Shown: one piece after another, positions 51,957 to 57,361 of the stretch | Layout of the letters: each line of letters begins with the position of its first letter | Numbering within the stretch: position 1 is the stretch's first letter | Source: Massilia sp. CF038 | Lineage (GTDB): Bacteria > Pseudomonadota > Gammaproteobacteria > Burkholderiales > Burkholderiaceae_D | Assembly: GCF_900129765.1 (NCBI RefSeq) | Contig: NZ_FQWU01000001.1 | Location: 2,046,001-2,110,000 of the forward strand | Reading direction: 5' to 3' | DNA: 64,000 nucleotides | Notes under the pieces: generated by a model | What the model saw: only the letters and a program-made list of their open reading frames with translations | Told to the model about the DNA's origin: nothing | Databases searched by the model: none | Position numbers and translations under genes: made by a program

Positions 51957-54900
51957 ATGAATGAACTCTATCGTCCCGACTTGAAAGCACACGTACTGAC
52001 CGACGAACGCAATCGGGTGCGCACCATCCGCCACTCGCAGGAATATTGGGAAAGCCCGACCGGCGGTGGCTTGATGAGCGCTGCCGCCTACCTGCGCGAA
52101 TTCGCCGGCGTGTATGAAATACCGGTCGCAAAATTTGATCGGCTCACCAGCAAAGTGGCGTTTCTCGATCCGGCCGAGCAAGGCGAAGAATATCGCCTGT
52201 CCGAAGAAAAACGCCAATTCGATTCCGAGACGTTTGGCTTCTACCAGACTTACCTGAATGTGCCTGTGTGGCGCGCCGGCCTGAAAGTCACGCTCAAGCA
52301 TGGCCCGAACCGCGTCATCAAATCCGATGACACGTCGCAAAGTGGGGTGAATGCCAAAATGCCTTCGCAGGAGGCGATCGACAAATACAAGCGGCTGTTC
52401 ACCACAGCCAATTCGACCACCGTGCAACGGCAAGCCCTACAAGCAAATCCGGACCTGCGCGCCGCTGCCGTAACCGCGGTCAACGCGGCTGGCGAAGACG
52501 AGAACGATCGCGAAGGCGTGGCGCTGCTGGGCCGTCTGTTCAAATTCGACACCGATGGCGAGGCGCGCGTCACGCAGACGCGCCTGGTACGTGGCCGCTT
52601 CTGGATCTATCGCTATGACGCAGCGGCGCGCCTGCCGGACGATGAAGGCGGCACCGTTCCCGTCCCCAAAGAGCAGCCGGCTCCTGAAACGCGCCGCAAC
52701 TTGAAGAAGGGTGGGGGAGAGGTCGACGACGGCGTGCAGCCTTTGCCGTTTGATCTGCCGGAAGTGTCGCAAAAAATCCGCGACGGCATGTACTACATGG
52801 TGGCGGAAATCACCTTCGAGCTGACCTACGGGCAGGATAAGCACATGTGGCGTGCCCTGTTCGAACTTGAGACCGATTCAATTCTCTATCTGCGCCCGCT
52901 CGAAGGGCACGTGAACGGCTTCGTACACGCCACCGATCCGATCACCAAGACCGGCACCACGGCACCGTCGAGCGGCTCCACCAATGCCACCTTGAATGCC
53001 CTGCGCGACGACATGCTGCTGCAAAATCTGAACGGTCCAAGCGGCGGCGTGCAGCATTTGCGCGGCAGTTTTGCCGAGGTGCGCCAGGTCGAGGGCCCGG
53101 ACATTGTGGCGCCCACGGAAACGGCGGGTACGAACTTCCATTACGATACCCGCAGCAACAACCTGGCCTCGGTCAGCGGCTACTTCCATGTGGACCGGAT
53201 TTTCCGCACCATGCAGGACCTGGGCTTTAACGTGGCCACCTACATGGCCAATACTGTATTCCCGATCCCGGTCGACATCCGCTGTTTCAATGATGTGAAC
53301 GCGCATTGCGTGGGCAACGGCACCGGCGGTATTGGCCACGCCGGTTTTGGCACCATGGACAGCAGCCTGCCGGGCGATCCGCTCGGGCGCGCCTGCGACC
53401 CGCGCGTGCACCTGCACGAAGTGCTGGGCCACGGCATTTTGTACGAGGCGGTCGACGGGGCCAACTTCGGGTTTGCGCACAGCGCGGGCGACTCATTGTC
53501 GCTGATCTATTTTGATCCCGATTCGCATTGCAAGGGCGTCGACGGCACCGCGGTCGGCAAACCGGGCGACCTGCGCTTTACGTATGTGCCGTGGCACCCC
53601 AGTCTGAACCGGCGTTGCGACCGCAGCGTGGCCACTGGCTGGGCCTGGAATGGCGCGCAGGACAATGGCGGCTACGGTTCCGAGGAAATCCTCGCGACAA
53701 CACTGTTTAATTTCTACCGCTCCATCGGCGGCGACCATCCGGATCTGGGACGGCGCCAGTTCGCCTCGCGCATGGCCATGTACCTGATCATGCGCGCCAT
53801 TGGCGACCTGACCCCGGCCACCAATCCGCAATACGCGCGCGACTTTGCGGCAGCGCTGATGGCCACCGATGCGCTGAACTGGACCAGCGAAGGCGTGTAT
53901 GGCGGCGCCTACAACAAGGTGATCCGCTGGGCCTTCGAAAAGCAGGGCGAGTACCAGACCCCGCTGGTGACCAATGGCAGCGCTGCCGACGGCACCATCA
54001 CCACGGCCGGCAAGCCGCCCCAGGTGGACGTCTACATCAACGACGGCCGCAACGGGGAATACCCGTTCCAGCACGTGCACTGGCAGACCACGACCATGTG
54101 GAACCGGCGTGCGGCCGACGGCATCGATGCGCACCAGGAACCGGAGCTGGGTGCGACCAACTATGCCTACGTCAAGATCCGCAACCGTGGCACCCAGCAG
54201 GCGCACAACGTGGTGGTGCGCGCCTTCCACACCAAACCTGGCGCCGGCCTGAACTGGCCTGCCGACTTTGCCGCGTTTGCCACGCCTTCCATCAATGTGG
54301 GCACCTTAAATGCCAACAACACCGAAGAGAAAATTGTCGGCCCCTTCGAATGGACGCCGAACATCAATGCCTACGGCCACGATTGCATGCTGATGGTGGT
54401 CTCGGCCGATGGCGACCCGTCCAATATCGATAACTTCACGGCGGGCGAAACCGTGCCCGAGTGGCGCCTTGTGCCGAACGACAATAACGTCGGTCAGCGC
54501 AATGTGACGGTCCTGCCAGCCGGCGGCGGCGAACTGGGCCTGATGGCCGGTCTGAATGGTAAGAGCTTCTTTGTCGGCAATCCTGACCCGAAACGCGGCA
54601 AGATCACCTTCAATGTGGTGCTGCCGGCACTGCTGGTCAAGCTGGGCTGGCGGCTGGAACTGGTGGACGTGGAAGGCGGCTTCACGCTTGCGTCCGGGGC
54701 CAAGCGCGAAGTCTTCATGCAGCTGCATCCAGGCAAAAACTTCACGCCCGCAGAGGTGGAGGCGACCACCGACCGCGCGTTCCGGATCGATGTCCTGTCC
54801 AACGATAACTTGATCGGCGGCATGACCTACCTGCTTGATCCGGCCTTGACCCGCCCTTGGAACGATGACAAGCCAAAAGATGGCGCCTGCTTGAACCAGG

Positions 54901-55004
54901 CGCAGCGGCTGGCCGAGTGCCTGGGCATCAAGCAGGATGTCGACCAAGTCTGCGTCAAGGAAATCACGGTGAGTCTGAAGATGAAGGGCAATTGCGGTTG
55001 CTGA
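51957..55004 (+). CDS. Putative metallopeptidase with HExxxH motif and C-terminal CARDB-like module
   Basis: This 1015-residue protein has a fungalysin/thermolysin-propeptide-like part near residues 90-115 (FYQTYLNVPVWRAGLKVTL). The metal-site-like sequence HEVLGHGILYE (H487, E488, H492) follows, then FGFAHSAGDSLSLIY (H508, D512) and YGSEEILATT. HEVLGH is an HExxxH motif, one residue longer than HExxH, like HELLGH of dipeptidyl peptidase III; the third ligand could be H508 or a Glu of the SEE pair. A CARDB-like module occupies roughly 700-850, shared with the next gene's protein. Five Cys lie in the last 40 residues (ending GNCGC). There is no signal peptide. AGAAGGAGA supports the ATG. The peptidase call is inference. 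Confidence 0.7.
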   Translation: MNELYRPDLKAHVLTDERNRVRTIRHSQEYWESPTGGGLMSAAAYLREFAGVYEIPVAKFDRLTSKVAFLDPAEQGEEYRLSEEKRQFDSETFGFYQTYLNVPVWRAGLKVTLKHGPNRVIKSDDTSQSGVNAKMPSQEAIDKYKRLFTTANSTTVQRQALQANPDLRAAAVTAVNAAGEDENDREGVALLGRLFKFDTDGEARVTQTRLVRGRFWIYRYDAAARLPDDEGGTVPVPKEQPAPETRRNLKKGGGEVDDGVQPLPFDLPEVSQKIRDGMYYMVAEITFELTYGQDKHMWRALFELETDSILYLRPLEGHVNGFVHATDPITKTGTTAPSSGSTNATLNALRDDMLLQNLNGPSGGVQHLRGSFAEVRQVEGPDIVAPTETAGTNFHYDTRSNNLASVSGYFHVDRIFRTMQDLGFNVATYMANTVFPIPVDIRCFNDVNAHCVGNGTGGIGHAGFGTMDSSLPGDPLGRACDPRVHLHEVLGHGILYEAVDGANFGFAHSAGDSLSLIYFDPDSHCKGVDGTAVGKPGDLRFTYVPWHPSLNRRCDRSVATGWAWNGAQDNGGYGSEEILATTLFNFYRSIGGDHPDLGRRQFASRMAMYLIMRAIGDLTPATNPQYARDFAAALMATDALNWTSEGVYGGAYNKVIRWAFEKQGEYQTPLVTNGSAADGTITTAGKPPQVDVYINDGRNGEYPFQHVHWQTTTMWNRRAADGIDAHQEPELGATNYAYVKIRNRGTQQAHNVVVRAFHTKPGAGLNWPADFAAFATPSINVGTLNANNTEEKIVGPFEWTPNINAYGHDCMLMVVSADGDPSNIDNFTAGETVPEWRLVPNDNNVGQRNVTVLPAGGGELGLMAGLNGKSFFVGNPDPKRGKITFNVVLPALLVKLGWRLELVDVEGGFTLASGAKREVFMQLHPGKNFTPAEVEATTDRAFRIDVLSNDNLIGGMTYLLDPALTRPWNDDKPKDGACLNQAQRLAECLGIKQDVDQVCVKEITVSLKMKGNCGC

Positions 55005-55039
55005 TGTTGGCATGCGCGCGTCGCGCCAGGGAGAAAATG

Positions 55040-57361
55040 ATGGCTATAAACTTTGACTTGGCGCCACCGCCAACCACCGTCGATGGGCTGCTGGCTGTGC
55101 CCATCGACATCCAGAGCGTCGATGCCGTGTTCGTGTTTGACGGTGCGGCGTCGACCGGCACGGCCGATGTGACCATGGCCTACACGGTCGGCCCGACGGC
55201 AGGTAACCCAATCTTCGATCTGCGCCAGAGTATTGCCGCGGCCTGGATCGATGGGGTGGCCGTGCCGCCGGCGCAACTGGCGCACCACAGCTTTGGCAGC
55301 GGCAGCTTTACCGACCTGCGCGTGATGGCGGCCGTGCAAGCGGCTGGTTCGGTCCACACCCTGCGTGTGCAGTATGCGCTGGCCCTGCCAGACGCGCAGC
55401 TGGGCGGCAGCTATCTGCCCGCCCTGGCGTGGACGCCGGGACCGCGCCTGCGCTTCGTGTTCGGCTTGTCAGACCTGAACCGGGCGCGTTACGCGGAAGC
55501 CTGGCTCCCTGCCAATTTGCTGTTTGACCAGTTTGCGCTCACGCTTGAACTAGCGGTGACAGGCACGCTGGCGCCGCATTCGGTGATCACCAACGCGGCC
55601 ATCACCGTGCTGGGGACCAACCACTGGCGCCTGGTGTTCCCGGCGCGGTTCAGCGCGCTGTCACCCATGCTGGAAGTGCGCGCCAGCGATACGCTGGAAA
55701 TGCAGACCGACAGCACGATACTGCCGGTATCGGGCACCAACGTCACGCTGGAGGGCTGGAAGCTGGTCGGCAGCGCGACCAATCTGACCACGGCACTCAA
55801 TTCACTCAAGGTCCTGCTTGCCGAAAACGAGAACGACTACGGCCCTTACCTGCACGGCAACCGCTACGTCGCCTTCTTCAACGGCAGTGGCGGCATGGAA
55901 TACGAGGGCGGCACCACCACCTCCACCAGCGCGCTCGCGCACGAAACCTTCCACAGCTGGTTCGCACGCGGCATCAAGCCCGCGTCCCAGGCCGATAGCT
56001 GGTGGGACGAGGGCTACACCACCTACCATGACGACGGCGCCGACGACGCGCTTCCGTTCGACTTCAGCGCGGCGCCGGTGCTACTGTGTTCGCGCGACCC
56101 ATGGCAGCGCCACACTGCGGGCAATGCCTACAGCGACGGCGCGCGCTTCTGGAAAGGTATAGCCGCCTTGCTGGGCGTGGCCACCTTCAAGACGCTGATG
56201 AAAGACTTGTACCTCACTTACCGTGGCAACCCGGTCTCGACCGCGATGATCGAGGAATATCTGCTGCGTCGTTCTGGCAACCCGCAAGTGGTCGATGCCT
56301 TCCATCGCTTTGTGTATGGCCTGGCCAATCCGTCGCCCGCGCCCGACCTGTGGTTGCGCGACGCATCTGGCGACCCGGGCAACGACAGCTGGGATGGCGC
56401 CTTCTGGAATTCGCCCGACCTGTGGATCCGCCGCGACAACGACAACGGCATCGTCCACCAGGCGCCCGAATACGGCCAGGACAACTGGTTCCATGCACGG
56501 GTACGCAACAAGGCAGGCAGCGGGGCGGCCCAGCACTTCGTGGTGACCTTCCACGCCAAAGGTTTTGCGGGTACCCAATTTCAATATCCGGCCGACTTCC
56601 TGCCAGCTATTGCCGCACGCGCCGAGTTCGACCTGGCGCCCGGTGCCACCAAGATCGTCAAAGCGCGCTGGCCACGTGCCCTGGTCCCGGCCGAAGGCAC
56701 CCACACCTGCCTGCTGGCCTCGGTTATCGCGCGCGGCGATCACCCGATTGCAGGGCGCCATGTTTGGGAGCACAACAATCTGGCACAAAAAAACTTGACG
56801 GTCGTGGACATGCTGCCCGACACCTTCTTGATTGTGCCGGTGATCATCGCCAACTGGGAGCCGCGCTTCGGGCGCGAGTTTGCATTGGAACTGCTTGAGG
56901 TACGCGGTTCGGCGCCATTTGGCGCCAGTCTGCTGCATGCCTCACCCGAGATCTTTCGCAAGGCGCGCACCAAACCGAAGCAGTTCACGCCGTTTGCCGA
57001 CCGCAAGCCGCCGGTGGCGCACGACATGGAACTGGAGTGCGGCGGCCACATCGACGGCGGCGCGCACCGTCACGATGGCAGCATCATGACGTCCAACCGG
57101 CGCGACCTGATCGAAAAACGTTTTCCTATTAGTTGGGAAATGCCGTTTGCCGCCGACGGCGCTGCCCGCATGACGATCGAGCTGGCGCCGTTTGACCAGA
57201 TTGTGATGGGCTTGAAGGTCATGGTGCCGCGCGACGCCCAGCCGGGCCAGGTGATCCGCCTGCATTTCGCGCAGCGCAGCCTGAAGGGCAAACACTTGGT
57301 TGGCGGCATCTCGGTCGAAGTGCGGGTGCCGAAAAAGGAGGAGCAGCGCTCAGCTTCGTGA
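55040..57361 (+). CDS. M1-like aminopeptidase with CARDB-like module
   Basis: This 773-residue protein has the complete M1 zinc signature: ALAHETFHSW (H301, E302, H305), then exactly 18 residues to the third ligand in WWDEGYTTY (E324). The region before it is beta-rich as in M1 N-terminal domains, and AGNAYSDGARFWKGIAALLG is consistent with the helical part. From about residue 463 comes a module with WIRRDNDNGIVHQAPEYGQD, similar in order to that in the upstream protein. A final beta-rich part ends in a charged tail. No signal peptide is visible. The start is ATG at 55040 (GGGAG six bases upstream; another ATG is three bases earlier). The gene is 35 bases after the HExxxH gene. Confidence 0.8.
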   Translation: MAINFDLAPPPTTVDGLLAVPIDIQSVDAVFVFDGAASTGTADVTMAYTVGPTAGNPIFDLRQSIAAAWIDGVAVPPAQLAHHSFGSGSFTDLRVMAAVQAAGSVHTLRVQYALALPDAQLGGSYLPALAWTPGPRLRFVFGLSDLNRARYAEAWLPANLLFDQFALTLELAVTGTLAPHSVITNAAITVLGTNHWRLVFPARFSALSPMLEVRASDTLEMQTDSTILPVSGTNVTLEGWKLVGSATNLTTALNSLKVLLAENENDYGPYLHGNRYVAFFNGSGGMEYEGGTTTSTSALAHETFHSWFARGIKPASQADSWWDEGYTTYHDDGADDALPFDFSAAPVLLCSRDPWQRHTAGNAYSDGARFWKGIAALLGVATFKTLMKDLYLTYRGNPVSTAMIEEYLLRRSGNPQVVDAFHRFVYGLANPSPAPDLWLRDASGDPGNDSWDGAFWNSPDLWIRRDNDNGIVHQAPEYGQDNWFHARVRNKAGSGAAQHFVVTFHAKGFAGTQFQYPADFLPAIAARAEFDLAPGATKIVKARWPRALVPAEGTHTCLLASVIARGDHPIAGRHVWEHNNLAQKNLTVVDMLPDTFLIVPVIIANWEPRFGREFALELLEVRGSAPFGASLLHASPEIFRKARTKPKQFTPFADRKPPVAHDMELECGGHIDGGAHRHDGSIMTSNRRDLIEKRFPISWEMPFAADGAARMTIELAPFDQIVMGLKVMVPRDAQPGQVIRLHFAQRSLKGKHLVGGISVEVRVPKKEEQRSAS

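Follow-up and report, generated by a model that had tools for sequence, protein, structure and literature searches.

The DNA analysed here is a 64,000-nucleotide stretch of the Massilia sp. CF038 genome (contig NZ_FQWU01000001.1, positions 2,046,001 to 2,110,000; hereafter the window), and the subject is a pair of consecutive genes, A and B, that encode two metallopeptidase-like proteins sharing a C-terminal module. The ATG of gene A at 51957 is preceded by gaaggag and its stop codon ends at 55004. Gene B begins 35 bases further on when counted to its second ATG, as an earlier sequence-only reading of the locus had stated, or 32 bases when counted to the first. The features of the locus, in window coordinates, are the following.

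51957..55004, forward strand: gene A, a 1015-aa zincin with a fungalysin/thermolysin propeptide (FTP)-like pro-region, a remote fungalysin-like catalytic region containing HEVLGH, and a C-terminal module
52059..52370, forward strand: A residues 35-138, FTP-like region (profile-profile match)
52908..53996, forward strand: A residues 318-680, catalytic region, matching the M36-like profile over 318-497; the limit at 680 is fixed by the module start
53415..53492, forward strand: A residues 487-512, predicted metal site H487-E488-x3-H492-x15-H508-x3-D512 (from invariance)
54009..54536, forward strand: A residues 685-860, immunoglobulin (Ig)-like, CARDB-like module (homology to the B module)
55005..55036, forward strand: intergenic gap with a ggag ribosome-binding-like site before B (sequence)
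55040..57361, forward strand: gene B, likely an M1-like aminopeptidase with a C-terminal module (773 aa; alternative ATG at 55037)
55889..56011, forward strand: B residues 284-324, GGMEY and HExxH-x18-E, M1-type active site (motif)
56324..56818, forward strand: B residues 429-593, module homologous to that of A (alignment)

Protein A had no family match in Pfam or NCBIfam at E values up to 1, M36 (PF02128) and M49 included, and for 16 aligned A-family members Pfam at E up to 0.1 returned FTP and CARDB alone. BLAST joined the A family to bacterial HEYGH M36-like proteins (3e-6 and 9e-6), which begin with a hydrophobic stretch; two of the three that were scanned have an FTP match above cut-off. 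In profile comparisons, residues 318-497 of A aligned with the M36-like family (hhalign E 7.5e-12, the match stopping at the zinc helix), and residues 35-138 with the FTP-bearing part of M36-like proteins (E 5.8e-6). When compared with solved structures, the profile of the M36-like relatives matched 4k90_B in the pro-region (9.5e-5) and 7qfy_A around HExxH (0.004), two fungalysins that are each named extracellular metalloproteinase; its best match was a collagenase domain outside the catalytic part. Because of the BLAST, hhalign and pro-region matches, A is, as far as sequence comparison can tell, distantly related to the fungalysin-like (M36) enzymes of bacteria, from which its metal site differs at two points, and not a member of M49. 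No Pfam or NCBIfam match to M49 was found, and the nearest kin are M36-like. The sequence-only reading had likened HEVLGH to the motif of dipeptidyl peptidase III (DPP III, M49) and held that the protein fits no known family: the likeness stands at the motif level, HEXXGH, with no kinship found in Pfam or NCBIfam, while the second statement proved too strong. The fungalysin-type propeptide that it proposed is borne out at family level by the profile match and by sub-threshold Pfam FTP matches in 3 of the 16 members, A itself having none. No A relative was present among 51 pattern matches in viral contigs, phage records gave no match for A, and no description of the family was found in the portions of open-licence papers covered by a literature search.

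HEVLGH occupies residues 487-492 of A, and the further His noted in the sequence-only reading, within FGFAHSAGD, is H508. Five residues, H487, E488, H492, H508 and D512, are invariant in all 16 aligned A-family members (that of the window included, and both HExxH and HExxxH types), and H487, H492 and H508 are the sole invariant His residues of this alignment. This pattern suggests H487, H492 and H508 as the probable zinc ligands of A and E488 as its general base, a His probably replacing Glu as the third ligand. H508 was equated with the Glu ligand of M36 and M4 enzymes because the same x3-Asp follows both; in all 17 HEYGH M36-like loci read, Asp stands four residues past the third ligand position, as Glu-x3-Asp. 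Between the second His and the third-ligand position there are 15 residues in A and 19 in the M36-like proteins. Two conserved Glu residues lie further along, E576 (15 of 16 rows) and E661 (16 of 16), at 84 and 169 residues from H492, respectively. An AlphaFold model of A 264-683, built from two sequences, reached a mean predicted local distance difference test (pLDDT) score of 29 and was not used.

Relatives of A were found in a planctomycete metagenome-assembled genome (68% identity), on a Paracoccus plasmid (44%) and on a Mesorhizobium plasmid (40% over residues 267-991). In a sample of 292 genomes from the order around genome G173, 15 had an A-profile match: proteins matching most of the profile occurred in six (G645, G688, G752, G795, G846 and G885), and ten matches were more distant, G885 having one of each kind. 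Among the 16 aligned rows, HEVLGH was found in the window, the planctomycete, G688 and G846, HEMGGH in Paracoccus and HExxH in the other 11. The tally of 20 members read, i.e., these 16 rows together with G645 (HEVLGH), G780, G861 and G837, comprises 6 HExxxH and 14 HExxH proteins, and the third His is present in every one, where M36 enzymes have HExxH with a Glu ligand. Identity to A is 46-68% for HExxxH members and 32-36% for module-bearing HExxH members. In a 19-row tree that included three M36-like rows and was built with the inserted column retained, the five HExxxH rows formed one clade (support 99/98), which makes a single insertion the simplest account of the extra residue; HEVLGH looks like an ordinary zincin helix, judging from the alignment, with one residue inserted. 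All 17 catalytic-region loci read in 294 genomes of the window organism's family have HEYGH. In G015, an M36-like region fused to an M28 domain has a Glu one residue off the place of H508 in the alignment, with x4-Asp. An ordinary M36-like protein is also encoded in the window's own genome (L054 2767-4902); it has HEYGH and begins with a hydrophobic stretch resembling a signal peptide.

Protein B carries H301-E302-H305-x18-E324, which confirms the exact M1 signature read there from the sequence, and HExxH-x18-E is present in all five B proteins read. In the same five, MEY replaces the canonical MEN, GxMEN being the M1 exopeptidase motif. The match to Pfam M1 (PF01433) had an E value of 0.0041 and 17.2 bits, under the 27.7-bit cut-off, and the nearest solved relatives are 6a8z and 6iff (phmmer best E 1.2e-4 over B 289-405). 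B is thus likely an M1-like aminopeptidase by homology, having in common with the solved M1 enzymes the signature and its surrounding region and differing from them in its sub-threshold Pfam score, the MEY motif and the Ig-like module.

The modules of the two proteins (A 684-853, B 429-589) are 31% identical over 176 columns with an E value of 4e-12, so the similarity noted from the sequence, for which homology had been set as a test, reflects common descent. In an alignment of 21 modules, the H and C of an HxC motif and the last N of NNxxQRN are invariant. The carriers are A, B, HAD proteins, the M36-like/M28 protein and S8 subtilases, the latter recognised by Pfam in L024, L025, L026, L050, L051, L116, L117 and L140 (L140 lying outside the 21-module alignment); in L027, L052 and L118 the module occurs without a Pfam enzyme domain. 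CARDB (PF07705) matched 13 of the 21 modules at E up to 0.1 (best 0.0011), P0005 scoring 14.5 against a cut-off of 22.7, and NPCBM-associated domains matched 5 of the 21 weakly. The description as CARDB-like is thus tentative for the family, A's own module giving no match. A structural model of the module was nearly all beta (mean pLDDT 56.5, core blocks 62-81), and Foldseek gave weak matches, the best at 4.2e-3 to GH3 enzymes and none below 0.001. From these weak CARDB and NPCBM-associated matches and the moderate model, the module is tentatively read as Ig-like. It resembles CARDB and related Ig-like domains in these matches and in its all-beta model core, and differs in its own HxC and NNxxQRN features and in following M36-like, M1, HAD, M28, S8 or no recognised domain. 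Since CARDB repeats on a subtilase are listed in an earlier paper (PMC2605481), such a domain on a peptidase is not itself new; what stands out is the sharing of the module across an operon. PADLOC found no match in six of seven proteins and a subtilase match for one S8-module protein. In L022 (7083-10310), a single protein combines a sub-threshold FTP match, an M36-like region with HEYGH, an M28 domain and the module.

To assess how A and B are distributed, 600 genomes were searched, the window's own included: 60 relatives, the sample of 292, and 248 centred on a genome found through A. Single proteins were used for the 60 relatives, and the larger searches scored the best two to four candidates per genome; short weak B-profile matches in other planctomycetes were excluded from the B count. 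HExxxH-type A was found in 5 of the 600 genomes and the M1 part of B, as a long match, in 6. Both were present in five (G000, G688, G846, G645 and the planctomycete G890), and B alone in G057. All five genomes with HExxxH-type A thus carry B, one copy (G645) being broken, which gives a Fisher value of 9e-12 for genomes that are non-independent (G688 and G846 belong to one genus). In the 292-genome sample, three genomes have both and none has one (3/3, Fisher 2e-7). Chance linkage was rejected on these values, and the two genes co-occur elsewhere, across Pseudomonadota and Planctomycetes, as the sequence-only reading requires. The Paracoccus (HExxxH) and Mesorhizobium (HExxH) proteins lie outside this count; their plasmid records alone were searched and contained a module match and no M1 part.

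The order of the genes differs among these genomes. Three genes abut one another in G688 and G846; their products are a B homologue (43-44% identity), a haloacid dehalogenase (HAD)-like protein with the module, and an A homologue (66% and about 62-63%); the HAD match (PF00702) reached 2.6e-9 in one operon and 24.2 bits against a 26.4-bit cut-off in the other. In G645 (L108 7111-11404), the front of B lies just before A; the coding sequence of A falls into two different frames and the middle of B is missing, which may reflect either decay of the set in this genome or an assembly error. In G890, A and B are on different contigs; this B is 70% identical, and a degraded stretch like A 915-985 (38%) stands just before it (L139 621-1244), as if the two had once been adjacent in the window's order. 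The B gene of G057 (51-52%) is preceded by one (L023 11404-13446) whose 680-aa product contains HEITHGFNQIH, possibly a metzincin-like motif; this protein had no Pfam match above cut-off.

HExxH-type A genes had no adjoining B in the loci read, and the genomes with them among the 292 had no M1 part of B elsewhere. Downstream of them, M28 genes were found on the Mesorhizobium plasmid (second gene on) and in G795 (next same-strand gene), and in G015 the M28 domain is fused to the M36-like region and the module. The recurrence of an endopeptidase-like protein with two unrelated exopeptidase types, seen in few loci, is the best evidence that a common substrate may be degraded stepwise. The sequence-only reading had proposed a two-enzyme system for degrading or maturing peptides; the recurring endopeptidase-like/aminopeptidase-like pairing favours degradation, and no positive sign of maturing was found.

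Export signals were assessed by hydropathy alone, as the best 12-residue stretch within the first 55 residues. A scored 0.91 and B 1.47, against 2.12-2.30 for three secreted-type M36-like controls, so the claim that both lack a signal peptide agrees with this measure. B proteins as a group (1.23-1.73) lie between A and the controls, and no stretch as hydrophobic as those of the controls was found in 11 A, 5 B and 2 HAD proteins. The S8 module carriers L024 and L026, the two scanned, likewise had no signal peptide-like start.

Several observations bear on mobility. The planctomycete homologue of A is 68% identical, compared with 66% and about 62-63% in G688 and G846, and no other near full-length A was present among the matches listed for 294 genomes of the window organism's family. 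Two A relatives are on plasmids, and the B-HAD-A operon of G846 (L105 4096-13017) lies between two inverted IS6-type transposase genes. From the cross-phylum closeness, the absence in the family, the plasmids and the flanking transposases, we infer that the A-B set is passed horizontally among bacteria. There is no support for a recent composite transposon in G846, the flanking transposases being 78% identical. IS6-type transposase genes also flank the A-like cluster of G766 (L114 5118-13280), and one precedes A of G885 (L109 7026-7592). In GC content, both overall and at third positions, A and B are close to the window and to two neighbouring genes. Between the window and planctomycete A genes, third codon positions are the least conserved (0.50 versus 0.75 and 0.84).

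Taken together, we hypothesize, with slightly better than even confidence, that A and B form a two-enzyme proteolytic set in which a divergent fungalysin-like endopeptidase and an M1-like aminopeptidase are linked by the module and move horizontally. A would be synthesised as a precursor, kept in check presumably by its FTP-like pro-region, and would cut proteins internally, B would trim the peptides released by A, and the shared module would probably bring the enzymes to one substrate, surface or complex; the same module is carried by the HAD enzyme of the operon and by subtilases elsewhere. Several points weigh against this hypothesis. Either E576 or E661 could take the place of H508 as third ligand; the equation of H508 with the Glu-ligand position depends on the x3-D pattern, the hhalign match ending at the HExxH helix and the spacing being different; and the ligand geometry is a prediction from sequence, with the catalytic-domain model at the low pLDDT given above. 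The match of B to Pfam M1 is below cut-off and MEY stands for MEN, and A appears to have no signal peptide-like start, although M36 enzymes are normally exported. Both genes are broken in G645, B in G057 stands beside another protein without A, and two of the four module-bearing HExxH loci (G752 and G885 C16) have no M28 neighbour in their open reading frame (ORF) lists, which were partly Pfam-tested. A bolder extension is offered tentatively, as less likely than not: A would represent a zincin subclass that combines three His ligands with a scaffold of fungalysin type, and in one of its clades a natural one-residue insertion would have changed HExxH to HExxxH without any link to DPP III. The module would mark hydrolases lacking signal peptides (M36-like, M1, M28 fusion, S8 and HAD), which would join in a protein-degrading complex that is interchangeable and moves horizontally.

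It is unlikely, in our estimate, that the metal site is fully DPP III-like, with H487, H492 and a distant Glu (E576 or E661) as ligands and H508 in the second shell or binding substrate. The conservation of both Glu residues fits such a site, as does the DPP III motif HExxxH-aa52-E (PMC3268031); A nevertheless has no Pfam M49 match, and H508 is kept in all 20 members, HExxH types included, followed after three residues by an Asp, the spacing that the 17 HEYGH loci show in Glu-x3-Asp, the displaced Glu and x4-Asp of G015 adding loose support for the equivalence. The loss of the zinc site through the insertion, which would leave A a catalytically dead or degenerate copy kept for its module, appears very improbable. 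The insertion does sit in the metal helix, and both genes are broken in G645, but no metal-site residue has been lost in the HExxxH clade, which spans two phyla, codon-position bias is that of a selected protein, and DPP III, TMCP1 and TldD/E are reported to be active with HExxxH.

The remaining alternatives concern what the pair acts on. The presence of the module on unrelated enzymes, including the HAD protein of the same operon, and the rare, patchy distribution of the pair in the genomes searched would suit enzymes that mature or inactivate one particular protein or peptide, with the module as specificity element. We regard this as improbable: no substrate gene was noticed, a weak argument since ORFs under 80-90 aa lay outside the lists and a small precursor gene is possible, and the partner peptidase type differs between lineages (M1 or M28), also a weak point. 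An MFS transporter gene adjoining B on the opposite strand in the window weakens these objections further. Exported peptidases usually have FTP pro-regions and Ig-like modules; on the Paracoccus plasmid A has an RTX-repeat gene as its neighbour, and on that of Mesorhizobium a gene for a LodA-type oxidase is only a few kb away. These features would accord with enzymes released or delivered, by a route without signal peptide, against competitors or for extracellular protein feeding. This seems rather more doubtful, as no secretion or injection gene set was noticed in the neighbourhoods read, where most neighbours lay outside the profile tests, and no control-like hydrophobic stretch was found in the A, B and HAD proteins scanned.

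Compared with known enzymes, A shares with M36 fungalysins (and M4 thermolysins) the FTP-type pro-region and an N-terminal catalytic part alignable up to the zinc helix, and departs from the former in HExxxH, the probable His ligand, the apparent lack of a signal peptide-like start and the missing Pfam M36 match. With DPP III it has in common the HEXXGH motif and the occurrence of both HExxH and HExxxH forms among relatives, natural DPP III members of both kinds being described in PMC5805324 and PMC9820243; it differs in lacking an M49 profile match and in its M36-like nearest kin. TldD (PMC5810440) and TMCP1/KIAA0895L (PMC10499314) are reported as HExxxH peptidases with one extra residue in the zinc helix, as in A, the third ligand being Cys in TldD and a putative residue of an EEG motif in TMCP1; kinship of A with these two was searched by Pfam alone. 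If the proposed reading is true, the A family would be a second one beside M49 with both kinds of zinc helix among relatives, in which the cost or benefit of the extra residue could be tested on natural proteins; a scaffold of fungalysin type with His in place of the Glu ligand would make the boundary between Glu-zincins and three-His zincins less sharp; and the shared module would mark a HAD enzyme and peptidases of unrelated families as members of a single set.

A different gene neighbourhood was observed around distant HExxH relatives of A (L048, L110, L111, L112, L113 and L114), which adjoin a gene whose product begins with a Gly-rich segment of low complexity and matches the PAP2 superfamily; the match exceeds the cut-off in L048, L111 and L113 and falls short of it in L110, L112 and L114. 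A cyclase/TPR-like gene adjoins the PAP2 gene, with a match above cut-off in L111 and a cyclase match below cut-off in L112; in L048, L113 and L114 this neighbour was recognised by its opening residues alone.

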